IMG/VR virus record: IMGVR_UViG_3300032160_001590
Location: 1 to 40,729 of that record
From: a virus
Length of the DNA stretch: 40,729 bases
Direction: 5' to 3' (one strand)
The notes under the pieces are model-generated. The model worked only from the letters and a program-made list of their open reading frames with translations. It did not search any database and was not told the origin of the DNA. The position numbers and the translations under genes are program-made. Below, one piece after another: positions 1 through 40,729 of the stretch. Within the stretch, counting starts at the first letter, position 1. Each line of letters opens with the position of its first letter.

Positions 1-348
1 GTGGAACTTGAGAGCATGACGCACGAGGAAGCGCGGGCGTATCTACTCGCCCAGGGGTTGCTAGAGACGGATTCGCCGAGGCCGCTGGCAGGGGGGGCGG
101 TCATGCGCATAACGCCGAGGGGACTGGACGTCTTCTCGCTACTGTTTGGGTTTTGTAAGGCGGCCGAGTTCAACGGGCGCGCGACCGCTGCGGAGACACG
201 GCTGGCCGCGATCCAGGCCCTCGTCGACGAGCAGGCCGAAGACGAAGCCCTATGGGCGACCGGGCTCGACGGCACCACGCCGATCGCAGAGGCATACCTG
301 CAGCAGGAGCTCCGCAAGCTGCACGCCCTGATCGAGGGGCACTCGTGA
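1..348 (+). CDS. Hypothetical early protein, 115 aa
   Basis: An unrecognised 115-residue protein that begins with GTG at the first base of the window. It is acidic and mostly helical in the C-terminal half, with an Ala/Glu-rich stretch around residues 60-115. No signal peptide, membrane segment or catalytic motif is visible. It overlaps the next gene by four bases (GTGA), so the pair is probably translationally coupled. If the genome is circular it would directly follow the integrase stop codon, making it the downstream end of the integration operon. The start could lie upstream, outside the window; an internal ATG at codon 6 is an alternative. Codon bias supports a real gene; the function is unknown. 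Confidence 0.6.
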   Translation: MELESMTHEEARAYLLAQGLLETDSPRPLAGGAVMRITPRGLDVFSLLFGFCKAAEFNGRATAAETRLAAIQALVDEQAEDEALWATGLDGTTPIAEAYLQQELRKLHALIEGHS

Positions 349-563
349 CCTTGACCTTCGAGCGCACGGCCGCGGTCGCCGCACTCGAGCGCGACTACGG
401 CGTCGCACGCGTACTACCGCCAGGCCCCGAGCGGGACGCCCTGCTCCGGGCTTGCGGAGTGCCGTGGCACACGCTGCTGGTCGATATCGGCGACGCCCTA
501 ACGGTCGCGTCGATCGACGAGCACGGCGCGGTGACGCTCCACGAGGTTAAGGACGGCCAGTGA
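345..563 (+). CDS. Small hypothetical protein, 72 aa
   Basis: A 72-residue protein of unknown function. I chose the GTG that overlaps the upstream TGA (GTGA at 345-348), because longer versions of the frame read through sequence with poor codon bias. The product looks like one small alpha/beta domain: an N-terminal helix rich in Glu and Arg, a central segment with a Cys-Gly turn, and a C-terminal strand pair ending HEVKDGQ. No motif identifies it. It closes the short operon that starts at position 1 and is followed by about 370 bases without a gene that hold a strongly structured element. Confidence 0.6.
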   Translation: MTLTFERTAAVAALERDYGVARVLPPGPERDALLRACGVPWHTLLVDIGDALTVASIDEHGAVTLHEVKDGQ

Positions 564-583
564 GGACTACGCCCCTTGAACGA

Positions 584-610
584 TGGAAGGCGCCACAAGG
601 GCGCCTTCCA
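584..610. terminator. Perfect 11-bp hairpin after the first operon
   Basis: TGGAAGGCGCC at 584-594 pairs perfectly with GGCGCCTTCCA at 600-610 around a 5-nt loop, 20 bases past the stop codon at 563. No T-run follows, so it would be an I-shaped terminator of the kind common in high-GC genomes, or the first helix of the structured RNA that follows. Confidence 0.55.
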
Positions 611-856
611 AGCTCTTGGCGCGAGCACACCAAGGAGGTGCGCTTGACAGCGTAGCCGAGTGCCCGGCGGAGCGCCGGGGATAACAGCCCGTGCCTCGTG
701 AATGGCCGGAACAACCGAGACCCCGCGCGTGCGGAGACCGTCTCGGCCGGCCAGCGGGACAGATGAAGGGCGCTTGTCATGGCCGCAGTCGGGCCGCCCG
801 CGCAGCATCAGGGCACCCCGGCGAGGGTGGTGTAAGCGAGGCACGGACACGTTTTT
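584..856 (+). ncRNA. Candidate structured noncoding RNA
   Basis: No convincing reading frame fills 564-934, but the plus strand has many complementary segments. Seen directly: an 11-bp perfect hairpin 584-594/600-610; a 7-bp hairpin 663-669/673-679; a long helix with 704-709 pairing 747-752, 715-721 pairing 740-746 and 723-726 pairing 731-734; a 10-bp perfect long-range pairing 689-698/837-846; an 8-bp pairing with one bulge, 645-652/771-779, which crosses the previous one as a pseudoknot; a hairpin 814-818/825-829; then TTTTT at 852-856. That fits a transcript of about 270 nt. The helix order does not fit a group I intron, and RNase P or tmRNA landmarks are absent. Strand is inferred from the T-run and the neighbouring genes. 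Alternative roles are an attachment or packaging site rich in inverted repeats. Confidence 0.5.
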
Positions 857-890
857 CTATAGCTGATCGTAGGTACTTCTCGGGTAGGAG

Positions 891-912
891 GGGCGCTCTA
901 CTGCGGGCGCCC
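891..912 (+). terminator. Hairpin upstream of zinc-ribbon gene
   Basis: GGGCGC at 891-896 pairs with GCGCCC at 907-912 around a 10-nt loop, 22 bases before the GTG at 935. It could attenuate read-through from the upstream element or sit in the leader of the next gene. The stem is only six base pairs. Confidence 0.3.
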
Positions 913-934
913 ACGGAGATAGAAAGGAGCACCA

Positions 935-1276
935 GTGAGCTTTCGACAGAGGGAGCGTGTGAGGCGCCGGAAGGCGCGGGCTGCGGTGGTGCGGGATCAG
1001 GCAGAGCAACGTAGCTCGGGTCTTCGCAGCGGCCGTTGGTGGCTGACGATCGTGAAACGCGATACGTGTTGTGCGCGGTGCGCGGGCATGTTGCGAGTGG
1101 GCCGCCCGATGGTTTTCAGGGCGACGCCGTGTGAAGCGTTGTGTCTGGCGTGTGCTGATCGTGACTCGTCGGTGAGGGCGCGTCCTTCGCTGCGTTGGGA
1201 AACGGATCGTAAGTCCGGGTCCTCTCAGAAAAATCGACCCCGGCGCGGCGCGCGTTCGGCGACGGCGCCCATGTAG
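935..1276 (+). CDS. Zinc-ribbon-like small basic protein
   Basis: A 113-residue basic protein. The N-terminal 30 residues are Arg-rich and helical (MSFRQRERVRRRKARA). Residues about 45-75 carry CCxxC and, about 20 residues later, CxxxCxxC, a plausible zinc ribbon; the RPSLRWE segment follows. Small proteins with this layout are, as I recall, widespread hypothetical proteins in actinobacterial genomes. The GTG start has a clear Shine-Dalgarno AAAGGAG (923-929) six bases upstream. The C-terminal tail is disordered, rich in Arg, Ser and Lys. Role unknown; nucleic-acid binding is a reasonable inference from the charge and the metal site. Confidence 0.7.
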   Translation: MSFRQRERVRRRKARAAVVRDQAEQRSSGLRSGRWWLTIVKRDTCCARCAGMLRVGRPMVFRATPCEALCLACADRDSSVRARPSLRWETDRKSGSSQKNRPRRGARSATAPM

Positions 1277-1333
1277 GGTGTCGTGGCTGCGCGAGGGTTG
1301 TGCTACGTCACCGTGGCCCGGTAGGATTTGCGC

Positions 1334-1438
1334 ATGATGAAGCTGTCAGTCTCCGTGTGGCTCCCGCGGCGCGTAGCGGTCGCGCTCGCGGTCGGCTGGC
1401 TGGTCCTGCTCGCCTACGAACTGGCGCGGTTGGTGTGA
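1334..1438 (+). CDS. 34-aa single-pass membrane peptide
   Basis: A very short gene starting at ATG 1334 (second ATG at 1337). The 34-residue product has a short basic N-terminus ending PRR and then one hydrophobic helix (VAVALAVGWLVLLAYELA), the layout of a single-pass membrane peptide with its N-terminus in the cytoplasm. It overlaps the following gene by four bases (GTGA at 1435-1438), which supports both reading frames. Peptides like this in phages can be holin accessories or membrane-acting early proteins, but nothing here shows which. Confidence 0.5.
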   Translation: MMKLSVSVWLPRRVAVALAVGWLVLLAYELARLV

Positions 1439-1593
1439 GACCGTTGTGTGAGGGCCGGTGGCGTCCCCTGCCGCCGGCGGTGATATGTGAGGATGACGCG
1501 CTGGCCGAGCTTGAGCGTTGGCTGGCCGAGCACGTCGACGAGTTCGTGCGAGGCGCGCAGGAGCTCGAACGGCGCCTGCTGGCCGCTCGTTAA
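1435..1593 (+). CDS. 52-aa hypothetical acidic protein
   Basis: A 52-residue protein starting at the GTG that overlaps the previous stop. It has one Cys near the N-terminus (PLCEG) and a second at ICEDD, then an amphipathic acidic helix (ALAELERWLAEHVDEF) continuing to the end. Longer versions of the frame from 1300 run through the membrane-peptide gene and have no better start. It is the last rightward gene before the bidirectional terminator at 1598-1629. Function unknown. Confidence 0.5.
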   Translation: MRPLCEGRWRPLPPAVICEDDALAELERWLAEHVDEFVRGAQELERRLLAAR

Positions 1594-1597
1594 CGAC

Positions 1598-1629
1598 GAA
1601 CGGCACCCCATGTTTCAGGGGTGCCGTTC
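1598..1629. terminator. Bidirectional terminator between convergent operons
   Basis: GAACGGCACCCC at 1598-1609 pairs perfectly over 12 bp with GGGGTGCCGTTC at 1618-1629 around an 8-nt loop. It lies five bases after the rightward stop at 1593 and 58 bases beyond the leftward stop at 1687, exactly at the meeting point of the two transcription units. There is no long T-run on either strand. Confidence 0.8.
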
Positions 1630-1686
1630 TGTGACCAGGAGGGGCGGTGAGTTCGAGCGTCTCGCCGCGTGTGTGAGTGTGGCAGG

Positions 1687-2091
1687 CTAGGCGGCGGACT
1701 CGGCCTCGGCTTCCTGCTCGGCGACGGACGCGCCCTGCTGGCCGGCGCCCGCGTGAGCGGCCTCCAGCTCGGCGCGCGCCTCGTCGCCCGGCGCCGGTGG
1801 CTGCTGCTCGCCGACAGTGCCGTCCGGCTCGGGGAGCTCGGCGTTGCCGGCGTCCGCCGGTGGCCCCTGGAGCAAGTGCTCGCTGGCGGTGGTGGCCGCG
1901 AGCACGAGCTCGTCGACCGTGCCCTGCTGGTCCTCGCCGGCCCCGGCCTGCGCGAGCTGCTCCTTCAACGACGTGATTTCGTCGTCGCGTTCGCTGATGA
2001 TCGTGTCGCGCCTGGCGAGCTCCTCGCCGTGGCGCTCCGCCGCGACGCTGAGGTCCGCGATCCGCTCCTTCAATGCTGTTAGGTCGAGCAT
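1687..2091 (-). CDS. Coiled-coil acidic protein, last gene of late region
   Basis: A 134-residue acidic protein. Residues 1-50 form a heptad-like coiled coil (LTALKERIADLSVAAERHGE onward); the remainder is rich in Ala, Glu, Gln, Gly and Pro and looks disordered. The ATG at 2091 has AGGAG about eight bases upstream. It overlaps the upstream membrane-protein gene by 13 bases and is the terminal gene of the leftward late unit. Small coiled-coil proteins beside lysis genes are common in actinophages, where I recall them annotated as hypothetical. No function is assigned. Confidence 0.65.
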   Translation of the reverse strand: MLDLTALKERIADLSVAAERHGEELARRDTIISERDDEITSLKEQLAQAGAGEDQQGTVDELVLAATTASEHLLQGPPADAGNAELPEPDGTVGEQQPPAPGDEARAELEAAHAGAGQQGASVAEQEAEAESAA

Positions 2092-2408: not shown

Positions 2409-2716
2409 GGGGGCGCCCCTTCGTGCTCGAGTGCGGGTGTGTGGTCTTCGCCGCGGTCTAGGCGCTCCTGGACGCGCGGGTGCGGCTCGCCGCGGTGGGC
2501 GAGGTAGTGCGTCTCCTCGACGAGCTGTGTCTGGTGGATTGCGTGCGCACGGAGCTCGGCATGACGGCGGCGTGCGGGCAGCACGAGATGGTGGTGGCCG
2601 AGCCATGCGAGCACCACGGCGAACACGGCCGACACCACGACGTCTACGGTCGTCCCGACGATCGCTTCACGGGCCGCTTCGATGTGGAAGCCCTGGAGTA
2701 GCAGCGTCGCGGTCAT
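2405..2716 (-). CDS. Small single-pass membrane protein of lysis region
   Basis: A 103-residue protein with a short amphipathic N-terminus, one transmembrane helix at about residues 20-42 (TTVDVVVSAVFAVVLAWLG), then a long charged, His-rich helical tail with the motif LAHRGEPHPRVQERLDRGED. It overlaps its neighbours by four bases on both sides (ATGA), so it is translationally coupled to the PAS gene upstream and the His/Cys membrane protein downstream. One membrane helix plus a long cytoplasmic tail fits a class III-like holin or a spanin-like partner, but this is inference from context only. Confidence 0.65.
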   Translation of the reverse strand: MTATLLLQGFHIEAAREAIVGTTVDVVVSAVFAVVLAWLGHHHLVLPARRRHAELRAHAIHQTQLVEETHYLAHRGEPHPRVQERLDRGEDHTPALEHEGAPP

Positions 2717-3099
2717 GCCGTGGTCTCGACGGGCCGCAGGTGCGCCATCACGAAGTTGCCGCGGCCGGCGACAGGGATCAGGTGAACCTCGACGGAGAAC
2801 TCGCTGCCGTCCCGACGGCAGGCGTAGATGTGCCGGTCGAGGCCCATCGGCCGAGTGCTGCGCGTCTCCGGGGCGGCCAGGAACGCGTCGCGTAGCCCGA
2901 CGTGGCCGTTGCGGTAGCGCTCCGGGAGCAGGATCTCCACGGGGTTGCCCTTCAGCGACCCGAGCTGCCAGCCGAACTCGCCGTACGCCTCCGCGTTCGC
3001 GGCGACGATGATGCCGTTCGCGTCGACGACGACGACGGGGTTCGACGCCTCGGCGATCAGCGCGACAACGCCTTGCGGGAGCGACGCTCGCCTGAGCAT
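2713..3099 (-). CDS. Stand-alone PAS-domain protein
   Basis: A 128-residue protein that is essentially one PAS domain. After a short N-terminal helix (residues 5-18) come NPVVVVDANGIIVAANAEA (20-38), the FGW turn, LLPERYRNGH (57-66), the PMGLDRHIYACRRDGSEF segment (84-101) and the closing strand VEVHLIPV. The LPERxRxxH and PMG..RRDGSEF..EV signatures match PAS sensor domains found in bacterial histidine kinases and diguanylate cyclases. No kinase, GGDEF or DNA-binding output domain is present. It lies between the holin-like gene and two small membrane proteins, with a 4-base overlap downstream. It may sense a ligand, redox state or light and act by protein-protein contact; the ligand and partner are not evident. 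Confidence 0.85.
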   Translation of the reverse strand: MLRRASLPQGVVALIAEASNPVVVVDANGIIVAANAEAYGEFGWQLGSLKGNPVEILLPERYRNGHVGLRDAFLAAPETRSTRPMGLDRHIYACRRDGSEFSVEVHLIPVAGRGNFVMAHLRPVETTA

Positions 3100-28159: not shown

Positions 28160-28281
28160 TCGCCCCACCTGTCCCGCATCGTGTCGGCGTGGCGTTTGGC
28201 GTGCGCGAGCGCCCCGCACGGGGTCTTGCCGGCCGCGCGCCACCGAAGGTAGCTGACGTGTAGGCGTTTCATGCGTGTCAT
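28156..28281 (-). CDS. Basic 41-aa protein between TerL and zinc protein
   Basis: A 41-residue basic protein (MTRMKRLHVSYLRWRAAGKT, then GALAHAKRHADTMRDRWGE) that overlaps TerL upstream by ATGA and the zinc-protein gene downstream by GTGA, so both boundaries are fixed by coupling. Very small basic proteins next to TerL can be HNH accessories or DNA-binding factors; the Arg/His content fits nucleic-acid contact. No family recognised. Confidence 0.6.
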   Translation of the reverse strand: MTRMKRLHVSYLRWRAAGKTPCGALAHAKRHADTMRDRWGE

Positions 28282-29825
28282 GCGAATATGCCTCCCATTG
28301 GTGTGCGGGGAACCTGGCGTTTGCCGAATCTCTTGCCGGTGATGTCTTCACGCATCGCGCGCTCCACTGGGCTCATCAGCCGTTCGTCCTCGGCCTCGTC
28401 GGCCGCGTAGGGCCTGGAGGCGACGATGTAGCGCAGCGCGTCGAGGCAGTGATCGTCGGCCTTGACGGGCTTCTCCTTCGGGTCGTCAGCGGTGCGTGTC
28501 GGCGTCGTCCAGCGGTACTTGCGGAACTGTTCGATCGTGACGGTGCAGTTCGCGCAGATCAGGAGCCGCCGGGCCTGTAGGCGCTCCTTCACACGGTTGA
28601 TGCCGGCGGTCACACTGTTCTGCCCGAGGATCGTGACTATCCCGTTGTCGGTGAACTCCATCTGGTCTGAGCGGCCCGTCTGGTGAACGATGTTGCGGGC
28701 GGACGGGTCGATGACATACCAGTCGGGGGCGATCGGGACGATGGCGCCCGTGTCGGTGTGCTGTCCCCACTTCTGGTTCACGAGCTTCATTGCCTGCGCG
28801 ACCTGTTTGACGGTGTGCCCCTGCAGCGTCAGCTCGTCGAAGACGACGAGCGTGTCGTCCTGCGTGAGGTAGCTCCACAGCACGGCGGCCATGTGCCTCA
28901 TGCCGGGGTCGATGCCGGTGTAGATCGGCGCGGCACGCGGCAGTAGCCGGTTGCCGTCATCGTCCTGGGCGATCTCGGGGATGACGTGGAAGTTGCGGGA
29001 GAACTCGTCGTAGATCATCCCCGCGAAGTGAACGAACCGGCCCGATTTGCGGGCGTCGCGTTCCTCCTTGCTCAAGCCTTTCAGGACACGCCGCTTCGTC
29101 GTCTCGTCAAGGTGCGGGTTGTCGTCCATGTCCACCAGGACGACCATGCCGTCCTCGAGGGTGCCTTTCGTCCACGGCTCCCAAATCTCGTCGTACATCC
29201 ACGACATGCCGTGCAGCGGGGTCATCGTGAATAGCTCGTCGCCGCCGTAGTCGATGAGACGCATCAGGCCCTCGCGGCGAATGTTCGACGGGGGCTCCTC
29301 GTCGTAGTGCAGACGGTGCTTCGCGGCGCCCCCGAACTTGTCGAGATCCTGCTCGAACGTGAGGAAGTCGATCGTGGAGCCGTTCACGAACGTCAGCTTG
29401 CGGAGCGTCTTGTCGTACGCCCGGTCGAACCTGCCGCCCTTGAGCTGCCCCTTCGGCGCCCATTCGCGGAGCTTCGTGAAGATGACGCCCTCCATCGTGC
29501 TCGTGAAGTCCGGCGCCACGATCCGGCAGTGAAACGGCGGCCGGTAGTGCTTGAACGGCCTAAGCGTCTCGGGTACGCAGTCCTCGTCGACGCACTGGAT
29601 CAGGTCATCGAGGATGCCCGCGGTGGTCTTGCCTGAGCGGTTGCCGCCGAGGAACGCCTTCAATGGCAGCCGCGACTCGTGGAACACGCGCTGCTTCGGG
29701 TGGGGTTCGTACCCGAGTAGCGGGTTCTGGCGCAGCGCCGTCTCGTACTCCTGGAGCAGACGGTGGGCTTCGTCCTGCTGCGCCGGCGGGAGACGCTCGA
29801 TCGCCCGCCGGTCTATGCGGAGCAT
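28278..29825 (-). CDS. terL: Terminase large subunit
   Basis: A 515-residue ATPase-nuclease that packages DNA through the portal. Walker A is GGNRSGKTT at residues 60-68; Walker B is LHYDEE with Asp175-Glu176; the coupling motif follows in LFTMTPLHG. The C-terminal RNase H-like nuclease begins at YTGIDPGM with Asp306, continues with LVVFDELT and ends with KADDHCLDALRYIVA. The length and order match phage terminases of the P22/T7-like podovirus group. The ATG lies one base after the preceding stop. The C-terminal tail (FGKRQVPRTPMGGIFA) is basic. A high-confidence call. Confidence 0.95.
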   Translation of the reverse strand: MLRIDRRAIERLPPAQQDEAHRLLQEYETALRQNPLLGYEPHPKQRVFHESRLPLKAFLGGNRSGKTTAGILDDLIQCVDEDCVPETLRPFKHYRPPFHCRIVAPDFTSTMEGVIFTKLREWAPKGQLKGGRFDRAYDKTLRKLTFVNGSTIDFLTFEQDLDKFGGAAKHRLHYDEEPPSNIRREGLMRLIDYGGDELFTMTPLHGMSWMYDEIWEPWTKGTLEDGMVVLVDMDDNPHLDETTKRRVLKGLSKEERDARKSGRFVHFAGMIYDEFSRNFHVIPEIAQDDDGNRLLPRAAPIYTGIDPGMRHMAAVLWSYLTQDDTLVVFDELTLQGHTVKQVAQAMKLVNQKWGQHTDTGAIVPIAPDWYVIDPSARNIVHQTGRSDQMEFTDNGIVTILGQNSVTAGINRVKERLQARRLLICANCTVTIEQFRKYRWTTPTRTADDPKEKPVKADDHCLDALRYIVASRPYAADEAEDERLMSPVERAMREDITGKRFGKRQVPRTPMGGIFA

Positions 29826-30961: not shown

Positions 30962-31344
30962 TTGCCGCGGCGTCCCGCGAGCTCCGAGTCGCGCCGCAGC
31001 AGACCCGAGTAGCCGCCCGTCAAGCTCATCTTCCCCGGCCGTGCCGGCACATGCGCCCGCACGCCCTGCCCTTCGCTCATCGAGTCCGTCTCGCTCGCAG
31101 GCTTCGCGTACGCGTGCCGCGCCACAGCGGACGGTTTGAGCATCCCGAAGTCCCGCTTCACGCCCGGCAGCCGCGGCAAACGCTTCACACCCGGCCTGTA
31201 CGTCTCATGCGATTCACTGGACGGGCTGGCCTTCACGTTCTGGCGCTGGCCGGCACGACTCGACTTCTCAATACTCCAGCGACGCGCGATATCCGGGTGC
31301 TCAGACTCCATGAACACCCGCTGCGCGCTCGAAAGGAATGGCAT
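30958..31344 (-). CDS. Basic protein with SxAQRVFM motif, 128 aa
   Basis: A 128-residue basic protein. Its start MPFLSSAQRVFMESEHPDIA matches a short N-terminal motif frequent in phage head-region proteins (MPFxSxAQRRFF, with a following P and basic helix). The rest is polar, Lys/Ser/Pro-rich and probably disordered, with GVKRDFGMLKPSAVARHAYA. GGGAGG lies six bases before ATG 31344. It is the first protein gene downstream of the tRNA in the late unit. Possibly a DNA-contacting head protein. Confidence 0.65.
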   Translation of the reverse strand: MPFLSSAQRVFMESEHPDIARRWSIEKSSRAGQRQNVKASPSSESHETYRPGVKRLPRLPGVKRDFGMLKPSAVARHAYAKPASETDSMSEGQGVRAHVPARPGKMSLTGGYSGLLRRDSELAGRRGK

Positions 31345-31381
31345 GGCGGGCCTCCCAGCAAGACGACGGAGGATCGAAGGA

Positions 31382-31454
31382 TGGCGGGGGCCGGACTCGA
31401 ACCGGCGACCTTCGGCGTATGAAGCCGACGAGCTACCGACTGCTCTACCCCGCG
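31382..31454 (-). tRNA. tRNA-Met (anticodon CAU)
   Basis: On the minus strand a full cloverleaf reads from 31454 to 31382: acceptor CGCGGGG, U8-A9, D stem GAGC/GCUC with loop AGUCGGUA, anticodon stem UCGGC/GCCGA with loop UUCAUAC (anticodon CAU, 31421-31419), variable AGGUC, T stem GCCGG/CCGGC with loop UUCGAGU, acceptor CCCCGCC, discriminator A. CCA is not encoded (TCC follows). Position 1 is C and 72 is C, an initiator-like unpaired first base pair, but the anticodon stem lacks the three G-C pairs of initiator tRNA. It probably supplements methionine or initiation decoding during late expression. Confidence 0.9.
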
Positions 31455-31572
31455 ACGCGAGACAGCCAAGACCACGAGAGCACAGCGAGGGCTAGAGCCG
31501 CCATGCTGGCCCACGACACTCCACGGCGCCGCAAGCAGTCAGTCTCAGCCGACGCGCAGCGTAGCACAACCG
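31455..31572 (-). other. Intergenic region upstream of tRNA-Met
   Basis: A 118-base gap between the 79-residue protein and the tRNA, both leftward. It likely holds promoter elements for the tRNA and late genes, but no clear -35/-10 pair stands out. The small hairpin CCCC-GAAC-GGGG at 31580-31591 lies within the end of the upstream gene. Confidence 0.35.
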
Positions 31573-31812
31573 TCAACCACCCCGAACGGGGCCGGCCATC
31601 GAGCGCGGACGCCGGACCGCCATGCCGCTATACGGCAACGTCACAGGCCCCTCCGTCGGCCACCCCGACAACGCACGCTGCAACAACCACAACGCGTCGC
31701 GCATCAGCACCAGCGACTCGGCGCCCATCCCCTCAAGACACCCCTCCGGCAACTCCACCTGCAAATGCGTACACCCATCCAGGTCAACCCACGTCGACGC
31801 CCGCGCCGCCAC
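31573..31812 (-). CDS. Hypothetical protein, 79 aa
   Basis: A 79-residue protein started at GTG 31812, directly after the previous TAG. It has an N-terminal segment with one Cys (WVDLDGCTHLQVELPEGCL), a helix (SLVLMRDALWLLQRALSGW) and a basic tail ending GPVRGG. Third codon positions are G/T-rich rather than G/C, like the neighbouring genes of this skewed block. Function unknown. Confidence 0.55.
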   Translation of the reverse strand: MAARASTWVDLDGCTHLQVELPEGCLEGMGAESLVLMRDALWLLQRALSGWPTEGPVTLPYSGMAVRRPRSMAGPVRGG

Positions 31813-32118
31813 CTACACCACACCCTCATCGCCCGCCGCGAGTTCCCCCACCAAGAACAACATGCCACGCGGCCCCGACGGGAACCCCTGATCCACGTAC
31901 ACGCACGACTCCGGCACCCTCGGACACGCCGCAACATCCCAAACCGTCATCGGCCCCGGCGCCGCAGCCACGTCCGCAAGATGCCGCTCACCACAAAACA
32001 CGCACGGCGCCAGACGCCTCACCACAGACGCCGGCAACACATAGCGGCCCGGCTCATACCGCTCCGCCCGCCTCCGCCACGCACGACCCATCGCGTCGAT
32101 ATCGTCAGCGAGACTCAC
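31813..32118 (-). CDS. Small zinc-binding-type protein, 101 aa
   Basis: A 101-residue protein: a basic N-terminal helix (DAMGRAWRRRAERYEPGRY) then PCVFCGERHLADVAAA and CPRVPESCVYVD, giving two Cys pairs separated by about 27 residues, a probable zinc ribbon. The C-terminal part is strand-forming. ATG 32118 overlaps the upstream stop (ATGA). It is part of the three-gene unit that opens the leftward region. Confidence 0.6.
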   Translation of the reverse strand: MSLADDIDAMGRAWRRRAERYEPGRYVLPASVVRRLAPCVFCGERHLADVAAAPGPMTVWDVAACPRVPESCVYVDQGFPSGPRGMLFLVGELAAGDEGVV

Positions 32119-32435
32119 GACGGCTCCCGGAAGCCCGCGAGGAAGGTCGCCGTCTCCCTGCTGAGGGTTGGGTCGTCGTGATCGGTGCGAGCAGTTACAA
32201 ACTGCATATGACGCTCAAGCAGCGCCAGCGCCTCGGTCAGTGCGTAGGCTGGCACGACCTCCATGTCGATCAGCGGACCCGGAAGGTCGGGGCCGTGGAC
32301 AACGAGCCGCGTCCCAGCGTCATCCTCCACCCGAACCAGACGCCACTCCATCCTCTCGCCCACGTCCGACAAGACTGTGATTGCAGCCGGCTCGCTCTCC
32401 CGACCACCCCAAAACTCATCAGCAGACACAGGCAC
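32115..32435 (-). CDS. Hypothetical protein, first gene of leftward region, 106 aa
   Basis: A 106-residue protein that I start at GTG 32435 (second GTG at 32429); the longer frame upstream is hydrophobic shadow from the G/T-rich tract. Acidic, with strands (AITVLSDVGERMEWRLVRVE, TRLVVHGPDLPGPLIDMEVV) and a helix (YALTEALALLERHMQFV). Three Met and no Cys after residue 1. It is the promoter-proximal leftward gene at the divergent region. Function unknown. Confidence 0.6.
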   Translation of the reverse strand: MPVSADEFWGGRESEPAAITVLSDVGERMEWRLVRVEDDAGTRLVVHGPDLPGPLIDMEVVPAYALTEALALLERHMQFVTARTDHDDPTLSRETATFLAGFREPS

Positions 32436-33319
32436 CCCACCAGCATAACCCCCAACACCCACCAAACACAAGCACCACCAAACCCCGCGAGACACCCCAA
32501 AACACAGTACCACCCACTCCCATGGGAGCACTCATCCGCCATTCGTCGCCTACCCCCTGCCATGTGGGCAGGCAATGGCATGTGGGAATGTCAGCGAGCA
32601 ACGCCAAGCCTGCGCCGCAGCGCCAGGCAGGCACGTAGGCATGCGCACGTCACGTTGCGTTGAGCACCACGGATCGGGCCTCGATCAGACCCCGTAGGGC
32701 AGTGGTGTGTCGCGCTGCCTGTCGCACACGGCCGGATATGGCGCTGTAGAGCCGTTCCGCTCATATGTGCGGCATCTAGCCGCCGCGTTCGCGGGGTCGA
32801 TGTCGTCTACGCGCTGCAGGGTGTTTAGACGGTCGCGGAGACGGACATCGCAGCGGACAGAATCGGGGTCACAATCGCTGGTCGCCGAGTCACAGGACAC
32901 ACGAGCTCGTCGCAGTCGGCGGACGGAGCGAGCGTCGCTTTCGGTCGCTGTTTGCTCGCGTGTTGGCGGTCTGGCGTGGTGTTTATACGGTGGTAGTGGC
33001 GTGTTGTGTGTGGTGCAGAGTGCAGTGCGGTGGGTTGTGTGCTGGTGGGGTGTGTTGCGGTTTGTGTTACTACTGTGTGTTGTTGTATCCGTGTGGTGGT
33101 GTTGTTGTACTGGCGTTGGTGGTTGGGGCTTTGTGCGCGTGTGTGTGCGTGCGCGTGACCTGGGCGTTGGTGGTGCTGCTCCTGGTCTACTGCGGTGGCG
33201 CTTGGCTCTTGCGCTGGTGGTGATGGTGGGGCGTGGTGTGGCTGTGCTCTGTGGCTGGTGGTGGCGGGGCTTGCCCTACAGGGCCACCGTCCACCCGCAC
33301 GCTATCGTGGCTGTCAAGT
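32436..33319. promoter_or_regulatory. Divergent control region with strong G+T skew
   Basis: An 884-base gap between leftward and rightward units. Seen directly: the palindrome CTCCCATGGGAG (32517-32528), direct repeats of CATGTGGG at 32561-32568 and 32579-32586 (period 18), an inverted repeat TGCCAT/ATGGCA (32558-32563, 32575-32580), and about 250 bases of G/T-rich DNA on the plus strand from 32970 to 33260. The frames translated there are Cys/Val/Trp-rich and not convincing; one 22-residue hydrophobic peptide from GTG 33157 is conceivable. It may be a bidirectional promoter region or a replication origin. Confidence 0.45.
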
Positions 33320-33796
33320 ATGGCTGCTTGTGGGTTGCGTTTGTGGCTTGGCCGGGAGGGTGCGTTGTTGGATGCGCGGCTTGCCGCGGCGGGGTTTTCG
33401 GGGATGGAGGGGTATTTGGTGTCGGGGGTTTGGGCTGGGTTCGTTGGTCGGTATCTGGCGGATGGGGGGACGTTGAGGTTGTGTGTGGTGTGTGATGGGG
33501 CTGGTGTGGTTTTGCGGCATCGGACGTGGGTTCGTGTGCCTGGTGGGGAGCTGTTCAGTGATGTGGTGCCGGTGTGTGGCGCGTGTTGGGGCGAGCTGGT
33601 GGGGCTGGCGTCCAGGCGGCGTGGTGTGGGTGTGTACGCGCTGGCGATGGAGGTCCGTGCCGGGCGCGGCGGCGAGCGTGTCGACGTCGGGTATTTCAGG
33701 GCGCCTACGCCGCCTGCTGGCCTGCGTGGCAGGGCGCTTGGGTTGTGGTGGCGGGACTATCACCGTTCGCGTGGCCGCGGCCGTAGATCCGCGTGA
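33320..33796 (+). CDS. Zinc-ribbon-type early protein, 158 aa
   Basis: A 158-residue protein started at ATG 33320. It contains CVVCDGAGVVLRHRTWVR and CGACWGELVG, two CxxC pairs about 33 residues apart, a probable zinc ribbon in the middle. The N-terminus has EGALLDARLAAAGFSG, a helix-like segment, and the C-terminus is basic (WWRDYHRSRGRGRRSA). No good ribosome-binding site precedes the ATG. Third positions are G or T-rich (TTG, GTG, GGT), unlike the G/C pattern elsewhere. A nucleic-acid-binding early regulator is the inference. Confidence 0.6.
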   Translation: MAACGLRLWLGREGALLDARLAAAGFSGMEGYLVSGVWAGFVGRYLADGGTLRLCVVCDGAGVVLRHRTWVRVPGGELFSDVVPVCGACWGELVGLASRRRGVGVYALAMEVRAGRGGERVDVGYFRAPTPPAGLRGRALGLWWRDYHRSRGRGRRSA

Positions 33797-33855
33797 CGGT
33801 CGGCGTGACCGTCACGCGCGGCGCAGGCTTCGTCTCACACAGTTTGTATAGGTGC

Positions 33856-33885
33856 CCTTGACAAACGTTCCTGGATCTGTCAAGG
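33856..33885. repeat. Inverted repeat CCTTGACA / TGTCAAGG
   Basis: CCTTGACA at 33856-33863 and TGTCAAGG at 33878-33885 form a perfect 8-bp inverted repeat with a 14-base spacer, in the gap between two rightward genes. The left arm includes TTGACA, the consensus -35 box, but no clear -10 box lies 16-18 bases downstream. It looks like an operator. Confidence 0.5.
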
Positions 33886-33908
33886 TGGGGTTATCACGGT
33901 AAGTAGGG

Positions 33909-33940
33909 TGCTCCCGCGCAGCTAGGAACTGCCGGGAGCA
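33909..33940 (+). terminator. Hairpin upstream of GTG 33965
   Basis: TGCTCCCG at 33909-33916 pairs with CGGGAGCA at 33933-33940, extended by GCAG 33918-33921 with CTGC 33929-33932 across one bulged C, with a 7-base loop. It lies between the zinc-ribbon gene and the next gene and could terminate the first or be part of the leader of the second. A short ORF of 16 codons starts at ATG 33940. Confidence 0.55.
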
Positions 33941-33964
33941 TGGACACCAGAAACGGGGTTTCCA

Positions 33965-34372
33965 GTGCCAGCAGCAACACTAGCCAGTAGGGAGAGCAGG
34001 GGCAAGTCGCGGTCGCGGCTGCTCAAGATTGAGTGCGACTCGTGCGGGATGATCCTTCGCGGGTCAGCGGGCGCGTTGTCGGGCGGGATGCCGGCGTGTT
34101 CGTGTGGTGGACGGCTCGAGGTTGCGGAGCTCGCGTCGCTGGAGCGTGTAGACCCCGCGCTGTTCGAGGAACGCGTGAACATGCTCGGGCTAGGCGACCG
34201 TAACCAGCTTATGCGGACGCTCGGCTATGACGACGCGGTGATCCGCCGGAAGTGCGACGAGCACCGGCACGCGCCGCCGCGCTGCAAACACGCGGGTTGT
34301 GGCGCGTTCAAGCCTGCTGGCGAGCTGTATTGCGCCCGGCACCGTCACCTAGACGACACGGTGCCGTTCTGA
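33965..34372 (+). CDS. Zinc-binding protein with CDSCGMILRGSA motif, 135 aa
   Basis: A 135-residue protein with GTG start 33965. The central region holds CDSCGMILRGSAGALSGGM followed by CSCGGRLEV, a four-Cys zinc ribbon, then LEERVNMLGLGDRNQLMRTL-like helices and a C-terminal second finger (CKHAGCG, YCARHRH). This arrangement is recognisable from actinophages as a conserved hypothetical protein. It ends with TGATG overlapping the next gene. A DNA-binding or recombination-accessory role is plausible but not shown. Confidence 0.7.
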   Translation: MPAATLASRESRGKSRSRLLKIECDSCGMILRGSAGALSGGMPACSCGGRLEVAELASLERVDPALFEERVNMLGLGDRNQLMRTLGYDDAVIRRKCDEHRHAPPRCKHAGCGAFKPAGELYCARHRHLDDTVPF

Positions 34373-39314: not shown

Positions 39315-39548
39315 ATGACCCAGGACGAGAAAGACGAGAAGGTCCGCGAGAACAGGCTACGGGCAGCCGCCGAGCGCCAAGGGCTCAAGCTGAGCAAGTC
39401 CCGTAGTCGTGACCCTAGGGCCATCGGCTACGGCTGCTGGCTGATCGTAGACGCTAACAATCGGGTTGTGGCGGGCGTAGGGGGGACCGGGCGCCCGGAG
39501 ATGGACTTGGATCAAGTTGAGCGGTACCTGACGGAAGGTGAGCGCTGA
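39315..39548 (+). CDS. Small conserved actinobacterial protein, 77 aa
   Basis: A 77-residue protein started at ATG 39315 with GGGAGG four bases upstream; an upstream frame is rejected because of poor codon bias. It has the pattern AAAERQGLKLSKSRSRDPRA, YGCWLIVDANNRVVAG, and EMDLDQVERYLTEGER, which I recall from many small actinobacterial and actinophage proteins placed near integrases. It overlaps the integrase start by one base (TGATG). The family function is not known. Confidence 0.75.
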   Translation: MTQDEKDEKVRENRLRAAAERQGLKLSKSRSRDPRAIGYGCWLIVDANNRVVAGVGGTGRPEMDLDQVERYLTEGER

Positions 39549-40729
39549 TGCACACCGAAACGGCAGCGACAGGGGTCACGCGGCGCCACAGTAGCGCTTG
39601 CTCTTTGAGTCGGGGCGGCAAGAAGTGCTCGTGCCAGTATCCGCTCCCGACCCTCCAGGCGAAGGTCAGCAAACCCGGCACGGGCCGGTGCGACACGAGA
39701 GACTTCGCGGCGGACGAACTGGCGGCTGCGCGTGAGTGGCGGGTCCTCCAGAAAGCCAAGAATCGGAAAGGTGAAGCAGCCGCGAAAGAATCGCCGCGCC
39801 TCGAACAGTACGCCCTGGAGGTTTGGTTGCCGGCGGTACGGGCCGAGGTCGATCGTGGCAAGAGGAAGGTGCAGACCGTCGAGGCGTATGATCGCCATCT
39901 GCGGAGCTACATCTTCCCCCGGTTCGGCCAGACGCGCCTTGACGACTTGCGGCCTGGACCCTTGCAGGAACTCCTAGACGACCTGAAAGCGCAGGGCCTC
40001 TCGGAGAGCACGGTCGACAGCGCGTTCACACCACTGAAGGGTCTCGTGCGGTTCGCGGTCAAACGTGAACACACGAGTTCTAACCGGGTCGTGGTGGACA
40101 AAGATCGGGTTGTGTCGCGCGAGAAACGGACGGTCGAGCTGCCCGTGCTCGTGAGCATGATCGCCGCCCTTCCTGAGACGGAGCGCGGCGTGTGGGCGAC
40201 GGCGGGCCTCGCGGGGCTGCGACGTGGCGAGCTGGCGGCGCTGCGGCCCGAGGATGTCGACCTGACGGCCGACACGCTGGAGGTCTTCCGCGCGCTCGAC
40301 TCGAAGTATCGTCTTGGTCTGCCGAAGGGCGGCAGGGGGCGCAAAGTACTCATCCTGGACGAGCTGCGGCCGTTCCTGCGCCGGCAGCTGCTTCTCGCGG
40401 ACCCGGCGCAGGACTATCTGTTCGGGAAGCCTCAGCGGATCTTCCGCGCCGTCGAGCCCGCGCGCAGATCGTGGAAGACGCACGGCCTGCCGACCGACAT
40501 GGGTTTGCATCACTTTCGGCATTGCTTCACGACCTACCTGCACGGCGCAGGCGTGTCGACGAAGGTGATCGACGACGCGATCGAACATGTCACGCCCGGC
40601 TTGACGCTGGGCCTTTACGTGCATGTCCAGGCGAGCGACCGCACGCTGGCGAAAGAGCAGTTCAGCGCCTACTACAAGCGCATGTTTGTCGCAGATGATG
40701 TCGCACAAGCCGGGATCGGGGCTCTGTAG
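39548..40729 (+). CDS. int: Tyrosine-type site-specific integrase
   Basis: A 393-residue integrase. Residues 15-50 hold a Cys-rich N-terminal arm (CSLSRGGKKCSCQY, RCDTR). The core-binding domain spans about 85-175 and the catalytic domain about 195-385. Catalytic residues: Arg225 in AGLRRGELAALR, His321-x-x-Arg324 in LHHFRHCFTTYL, His347 in IEHVTPG, and nucleophile Tyr357 in LGLYVHV. It joins phage attP with host attB and, with the excisionase-like gene product, excises the prophage. No attP core or tRNA 3'-end match is visible close by. The stop codon is the last codon of the window. Confidence 0.95.
   Translation: MHTETAATGVTRRHSSACSLSRGGKKCSCQYPLPTLQAKVSKPGTGRCDTRDFAADELAAAREWRVLQKAKNRKGEAAAKESPRLEQYALEVWLPAVRAEVDRGKRKVQTVEAYDRHLRSYIFPRFGQTRLDDLRPGPLQELLDDLKAQGLSESTVDSAFTPLKGLVRFAVKREHTSSNRVVVDKDRVVSREKRTVELPVLVSMIAALPETERGVWATAGLAGLRRGELAALRPEDVDLTADTLEVFRALDSKYRLGLPKGGRGRKVLILDELRPFLRRQLLLADPAQDYLFGKPQRIFRAVEPARRSWKTHGLPTDMGLHHFRHCFTTYLHGAGVSTKVIDDAIEHVTPGLTLGLYVHVQASDRTLAKEQFSAYYKRMFVADDVAQAGIGAL

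Follow-up and report, generated by a model that had tools for sequence, protein, structure and literature searches.

A putative pseudoknotted leader RNA associated with a Cys-rich protein gene in actinobacterial integrated elements

In the window, by which we mean the whole 40,729-nucleotide stretch of viral DNA analysed here, the region at 584-856 appears from a comparison of loci to encode a real structured RNA, which is absent from Rfam and is better supported than a single sequence could show. Its pseudoknot, formed by two long-range helices (X and B), is well supported as a conserved structure by covariation, and the RNA probably controls or partners the gene that follows it, which encodes a Cys-rich protein. 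The first-pass annotation, made from one sequence, had a new, pseudoknotted phage RNA among its candidates, and both the covariation in homologous loci and the lack of any Rfam match bear this out.

The region and the element that carries it

The gene-free stretch of about 270 bases is indeed non-coding by codon-position GC and codon usage and lies between the ORFs at 342-563 and 935-1276. The helices listed in the annotation all exist on the + strand, including helix B, a perfect 10-bp pairing of 689-698 (5' arm CCGTGCCTCG) with 837-846 (3' arm CGAGGCACGG), and a composite stem predicted in the window (703-709/747-753 and 715-721/740-746, with an AACAA bulge). Helix X pairs 673-680 (CGCCGGGG) with 816-823 (CCCCGGCG) on the same strand, and the short GC hairpin H1 (663-669/673-679, + strand) is mutually exclusive with X because it overlaps the X 5' arm. 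Upstream, a + strand hairpin of 11 perfect bp with a 5-base loop (584-594/600-610) is possibly a U-less terminator or the first stem of the leader. By eye, we also found on the + strand a local hairpin of the form GCGG GACA...TGTC..CCGC (754-761/775-786), absent from the MFE fold of the window, and a GAGG..CGC..TAGC motif (635-657); a TAGGAGGG motif with a hairpin (880-911, + strand) lies between the pseudoknot and the gene. The TTTTT at 852-856, which had been noted as well, is present but does not follow a terminator stem; no terminator was found there and the run is not conserved across loci. The region holds no tandem repeats and no tRNA match.

From this one sequence alone, the case for a structured RNA is weak. 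A perfect helix of at least 10 bp occurs in 5.7% of dinucleotide shuffles, and the MFE z-score is -3.1 for 575-870 and -1.8 for 612-850, where the 5' hairpin is left aside. The + strand of 584-856 ranks among the best 3.6% of 448 contig windows, helped by the 11-bp hairpin at 584-610, and the reverse strand folds no better than the + strand. This chance-level doubt is outweighed by the six homologous loci described below, in which B is supported by covariation.

The contig is probably a trimmed actinobacterial provirus. Its last base is also the last of a tyrosine integrase gene (39548-40729, Pfam PF00589), and one ORF begins on its first; its structural genes are podovirus-like, PHROGs matches were obtained for the portal and the large terminase, and the phages in the collection whose portals come closest, at ~27% identity, are mostly actinobacteriophages. 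The RNA region lies ~600 bases from the left edge and the integrase at the right, so that the "early region" of the annotation is a loose description of the left edge of a provirus. In 17 records with terminases 56-77% identical, the structural genes align with those of the contig, and nothing aligns with window positions 1-2000. Downstream of the leader, no more than about three small genes of the window come before a hairpin at 1595-1632. This strong hairpin (AACGGCACCCC..GGGGTGCCGTT) stands directly after the last small + strand gene and has the look of a terminator separating convergent gene blocks.

Other features of the contig were observed in passing. A 34-aa small ORF (MMKLSVSVWLPRRVAVALAVGWLVLLAYELARLV) at 1334-1438 reads as a single membrane-spanning peptide, and 2713-3099 encodes a PAS-domain protein of the provirus (TIGR00229, E = 5e-9). 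A stretch of ~3 kb at 31318-34371, adjoined by a tRNA-Met gene (31379-31455, - strand), is without coding signal by the contig's codon usage and carries long C/A-rich runs (G/T-rich on the other strand).

Homologous loci and the pairing of helices X and B

The downstream gene (935-1276, + strand) encodes a 113-aa basic Cys-rich protein (CxxC..CxxC), which has no match in Pfam, NCBIfam, PADLOC or PDB and only one marginal match in PHROGs, none to a PHROG toxin. Among 399 genomes of one actinobacterial class, homologues were found in G492 (61% identity), G631 (47%) and G717 (42%), and a profile of these three run against 232 genomes of their order brought in G823 and G810; a weak profile match in G655 was set aside, and a phylum-wide sample of 277 genomes gave no further homologue. 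All five genomes belong to one actinobacterial order, and a non-coding leader precedes the gene in each. The gene after the leader is always of the Cys-rich family, while the genes upstream differ between loci. The window and these five loci make up the six that we compared.

Compensatory changes keep both helices in homologous loci, as is expected of a structured RNA. Helix B of the window is replaced by CCGTGTCC/GGACACGG in G631 and by GCGACGC/GCGTCGC in G823, the letters changed and the pairing kept, which are the compensatory substitutions that the annotation had proposed to look for in this helix. Helix X reads CGGACGGTCCCGGC/GCCGGGGCCGTCCG in G492, GGCCCAGTAG/CTACTGGGTC in G631 and, with one G-U, CCGGCGAC/GTCGTCGG in G823. 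The X 5' arm lies at -262 to -275 and the B 5' arm at -243 to -261 from the start of the Cys-rich gene, and the 3' arms lie at -119 to -122 from the start codon for X (four loci) and at -99 to -102 for B (three loci). Each X arm lies upstream of the corresponding B arm, and the two helices therefore cross, forming a pseudoknot that ends ~85 bases before the start codon; in the window, about 117 bases separate the B 5' arm from the X 3' arm. The annotation thus chose the right helix in B, but the partner that it named finds no support: 645-652/771-779 does not rank with the best zone pairs, the 3' arm of this helix can also form part of the hairpin 754-761/775-786, and the supported crossing helix is X.

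To compare own with foreign pairing, the zones of the window +/-12 bases were taken and the 5' zone of each locus was paired with the 3' zone of every locus. For X, the own arms were the best of all assignments (1/720, and 1/120 without the window); for B, they ranked 6/720, and 0.05 without the window. An unbiased scan contrasted own and swapped arms for 364 pairs of 32-base zones between -380 and -40, at spacings of 70-170 bases. With all six loci, the highest ranks went to the X zones (z about -4.0) and the B zones (-3.8); without the window, the X zones were again first (z = -4.1) and the B zones were the next distinct pair (-3.0). The strongest value of the scan was -2.7 kcal/mol in the coding region against -6.0 in the leader, and a coarser zone scan supported the same two helices. 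X and B are clear in three to four of the six loci, G717 and G810 being without clear helices, and a loose pseudoknot search rose clearly above shuffles in the window and G492 only. Letter by letter, the leaders are ~50% identical, which is near background; MAFFT alignments of them misplace the arms and were left out of the pair counts.

The leaders share further features, most of them noted by eye. The GAGG..CGC..TAGC motif stands before X, short GC hairpins occupy the place of H1 in other loci, an A-rich linker precedes B, and, ahead of the B 3' arm, several other loci have (G)CCGGAGA and the window has GGTGTAAG. An AGGAGGG-like motif occurs about 50-60 bases before the start in five of the six leaders, and look-alikes of the local hairpin 754-786 occur in G823, G492 and G631. 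Apart from these, a perfect hairpin of 11-14 bp with a 5-base loop lies upstream at about equal distance from the gene in the window, G492 (14 bp) and G823 (12 bp), in the latter two inside an upstream open frame.

The elements carrying these loci are diverse. G492 is a prophage with a portal, a capsid/protease, a terminase-like ORF and a tyrosine integrase nearby, and its leader precedes, on the same strand, the Cys-rich, terminase-like, portal and capsid genes. Between this leader and a divergent integrase lies a tRNA-like fragment (GGACTCGAACCGATGACC; L326, 9700-10800), which is possibly an att core flanked by the two. The G823 element (L336, 8516-18600) is ~10 kb long, begins after a tRNA-Glu gene, and carries an HTH-like ORF, the leader, the Cys-rich gene and small genes, with an integrase 8-9 kb downstream; no structural genes were recognised in it, and it is possibly a phage satellite. 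The leaders of G631 and G810 follow tRNA-Asp and tRNA-Pro genes at a distance of a few hundred bases. Judged by position, the leader and the Cys-rich gene seem to form a module that occupies the ends of different integrated elements, close to tRNA genes or integrases, and is carried presumably by prophages and by a smaller integrative element.

Known RNAs and competing explanations

Direct searches found no relative of the RNA. Rfam 15 gave nothing relevant in the window at the gathering score or at E<=10 and only tRNAs in the five homologous loci, so that no family was matched at or above its gathering threshold. blastn against phages and plasmids returned no match to the region, and DNA searches of the 17 related podovirus records, 29 further records and two actinobacterial genome samples (397 and 399) yielded short chance matches only. 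A single-sequence covariance model found no match in related phages, whose records are also without the Cys-rich gene, and scans with the neighbouring proteins in viral contigs, phages and plasmids gave no useful relative. Several candidates were dropped. Matches of a 14-mer and a gapped motif in viral contigs were due to chance and lacked the B partner. The part CCGGGGATAACAG, a putative look-alike of 23S rRNA, matches a sole genome locus (L241) that is not rRNA. A micro-ORF, TTG ACA GCG TAG after AAGGAGGTGCGC (632-655), has no start codon there in other loci, and the shared TAG therefore seems to be an RNA motif. Readthrough of a stop codon ahead of the pseudoknot was rejected as the downstream frames close within ~40 codons and, by eye, share no sequence.

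The architecture also departs from that of known classes. In group I introns the 5' strand of P7 directly precedes the 3' strand of P3, and the B 5' and X 3' arms are too far apart for this order, which agrees with the annotation. The same distance and the absence of an Rfam match argue against the nested double pseudoknot of HDV-like ribozymes, with its short P3 and catalytic C in J4/2. Ribosomal protein leaders such as those of S4 and S15 are pseudoknotted and autoregulatory. The present element resembles them as a pseudoknot leader at fixed spacing before a small basic protein gene, whereas its protein is not ribosomal, binding is only putative, and the RNA is longer. GOLLD and ROOL are ornate non-coding RNAs with pseudoknots and are often linked to phages. 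These large phage RNAs (named in PMC12286853) are much larger than the present one and are in Rfam, with no match to either here. The RNA-based replication origins of mycobacterial cluster A prophages, which are extrachromosomal, beside parABS and without integrase (PMC7157519), are likewise non-coding RNAs of actinobacterial temperate phages, but the elements described here carry integrases.

Among the rival explanations, an independent trans-acting or scaffold RNA of the element, which merely lies upstream of the gene, is unlikely. The ornate structure of about 230-300 nt, the T-run and the 85 bases to the start codon would suit it, but the near-constant spacing to the start codon across loci is unexpected for a separate RNA, and the T-run is neither conserved nor part of a terminator. 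We give a somewhat poorer chance to an RNA-protein pair like AbiF or a type III toxin-antitoxin system, in which the released RNA binds and neutralises the protein of the next gene. The layout is shared with the abiF RNA (RF03085) or RCd22 and AbiF: in prophages, a conserved structured RNA immediately precedes a small protein gene and has the same orientation (PMC12373285). RCd22, however, has about 100-130 nt, two short abiF motifs, a U-tract terminator and an Abi_2 partner (PMC12373285), whereas the element here has a single long-range pseudoknot and an unrelated Cys-rich protein, with no RF03085 match. The tandem short pseudoknots that precede a ToxN-like gene in type III systems have no counterpart in this repeat-free region, and the protein is unlike PADLOC models and matches no toxin in PADLOC, Pfam or PHROGs. 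An antitermination or attenuation element (like put or EAR RNAs), which would let polymerase pass operon terminators near the att site, is improbable. It would fit the gene order of G492 and the hairpins on both sides of the pseudoknot, but in the window only about three small genes precede the apparent terminator, and the operon is not the same in all loci.

Chance complementarity in GC-rich DNA, with the loci sharing only the gene, is more improbable still. The single-sequence fold is only mildly above shuffles, no homologue appears at sequence level and two of the six loci are unclear; yet X and B lead the unbiased scan, also in the five other loci without the window, and X is the best of 720 assignments. 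The least probable reading is a site acting as DNA, with a strand that folds: a single-strand origin, an origin of transfer or an accessory site of recombination. The element-end position near tRNA/att sites or integrases and a weak, sub-threshold NikA-like match in the G823 element speak for it, but crossing helices and constant start-codon spacing are typical of RNA, and the reverse strand has no better fold. The att or pac site that the annotation had also offered finds no support: the RNA lies beside and not on the tRNA/att end of the elements, no tRNA match falls in the region, where an att core would be identical to a tRNA end, and the terminase gene (28278-29825) is about 28 kb away.

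Proposed working of the leader and its significance

The explanation that we prefer, tentatively and at somewhat under even probability, is that of a long structured 5' leader which forms an autoregulated switch with the Cys-rich gene in a mobile module. The leader would extend on the + strand from about 612 (or 584) to about 930 and be co-transcribed with the Cys-rich gene, the pseudoknot with the hairpins between its arms forming the core. The position before one gene family is conserved, and action in cis on the Cys-rich gene is suggested by the fixed spacing, the fixed downstream gene and the varying upstream genes. Competition between X and the local H1 would give two leader shapes, one of which would let a ribosome or polymerase reach the gene. 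Autoregulation by leader binding is known for some ribosomal proteins. The signal here would most likely be the Cys-rich protein itself, basic and probably zinc-binding, which would bind its own leader; the H1/X switch and this ligand are conjectural and have less support than action in cis. RNA and gene would move as a unit, located at the ends of prophages and of smaller integrative elements. The lack of clear helices in G717 and G810, the low identity of the leaders and the distance of the pseudoknot from the start codon count against this explanation. Its fullest form is doubtful: actinobacterial prophages and smaller integrative elements would share a novel pairing of RNA and protein, in which the pseudoknot leader switches between H1 and X, either is sensed by its own Cys-rich protein or restrains that protein, and decides whether the genes at the element's end are on.

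If true, the module would join two uncatalogued families, one of RNA and one of protein, within one actinobacterial order, where full prophages and a smaller integrative element share it, and would give a handle on the control of genes next to the att ends in such elements. The analysis also shows that fast-evolving phage RNAs that are unseen by BLAST and Rfam are reachable via the neighbouring gene and can be confirmed by pairing alone.
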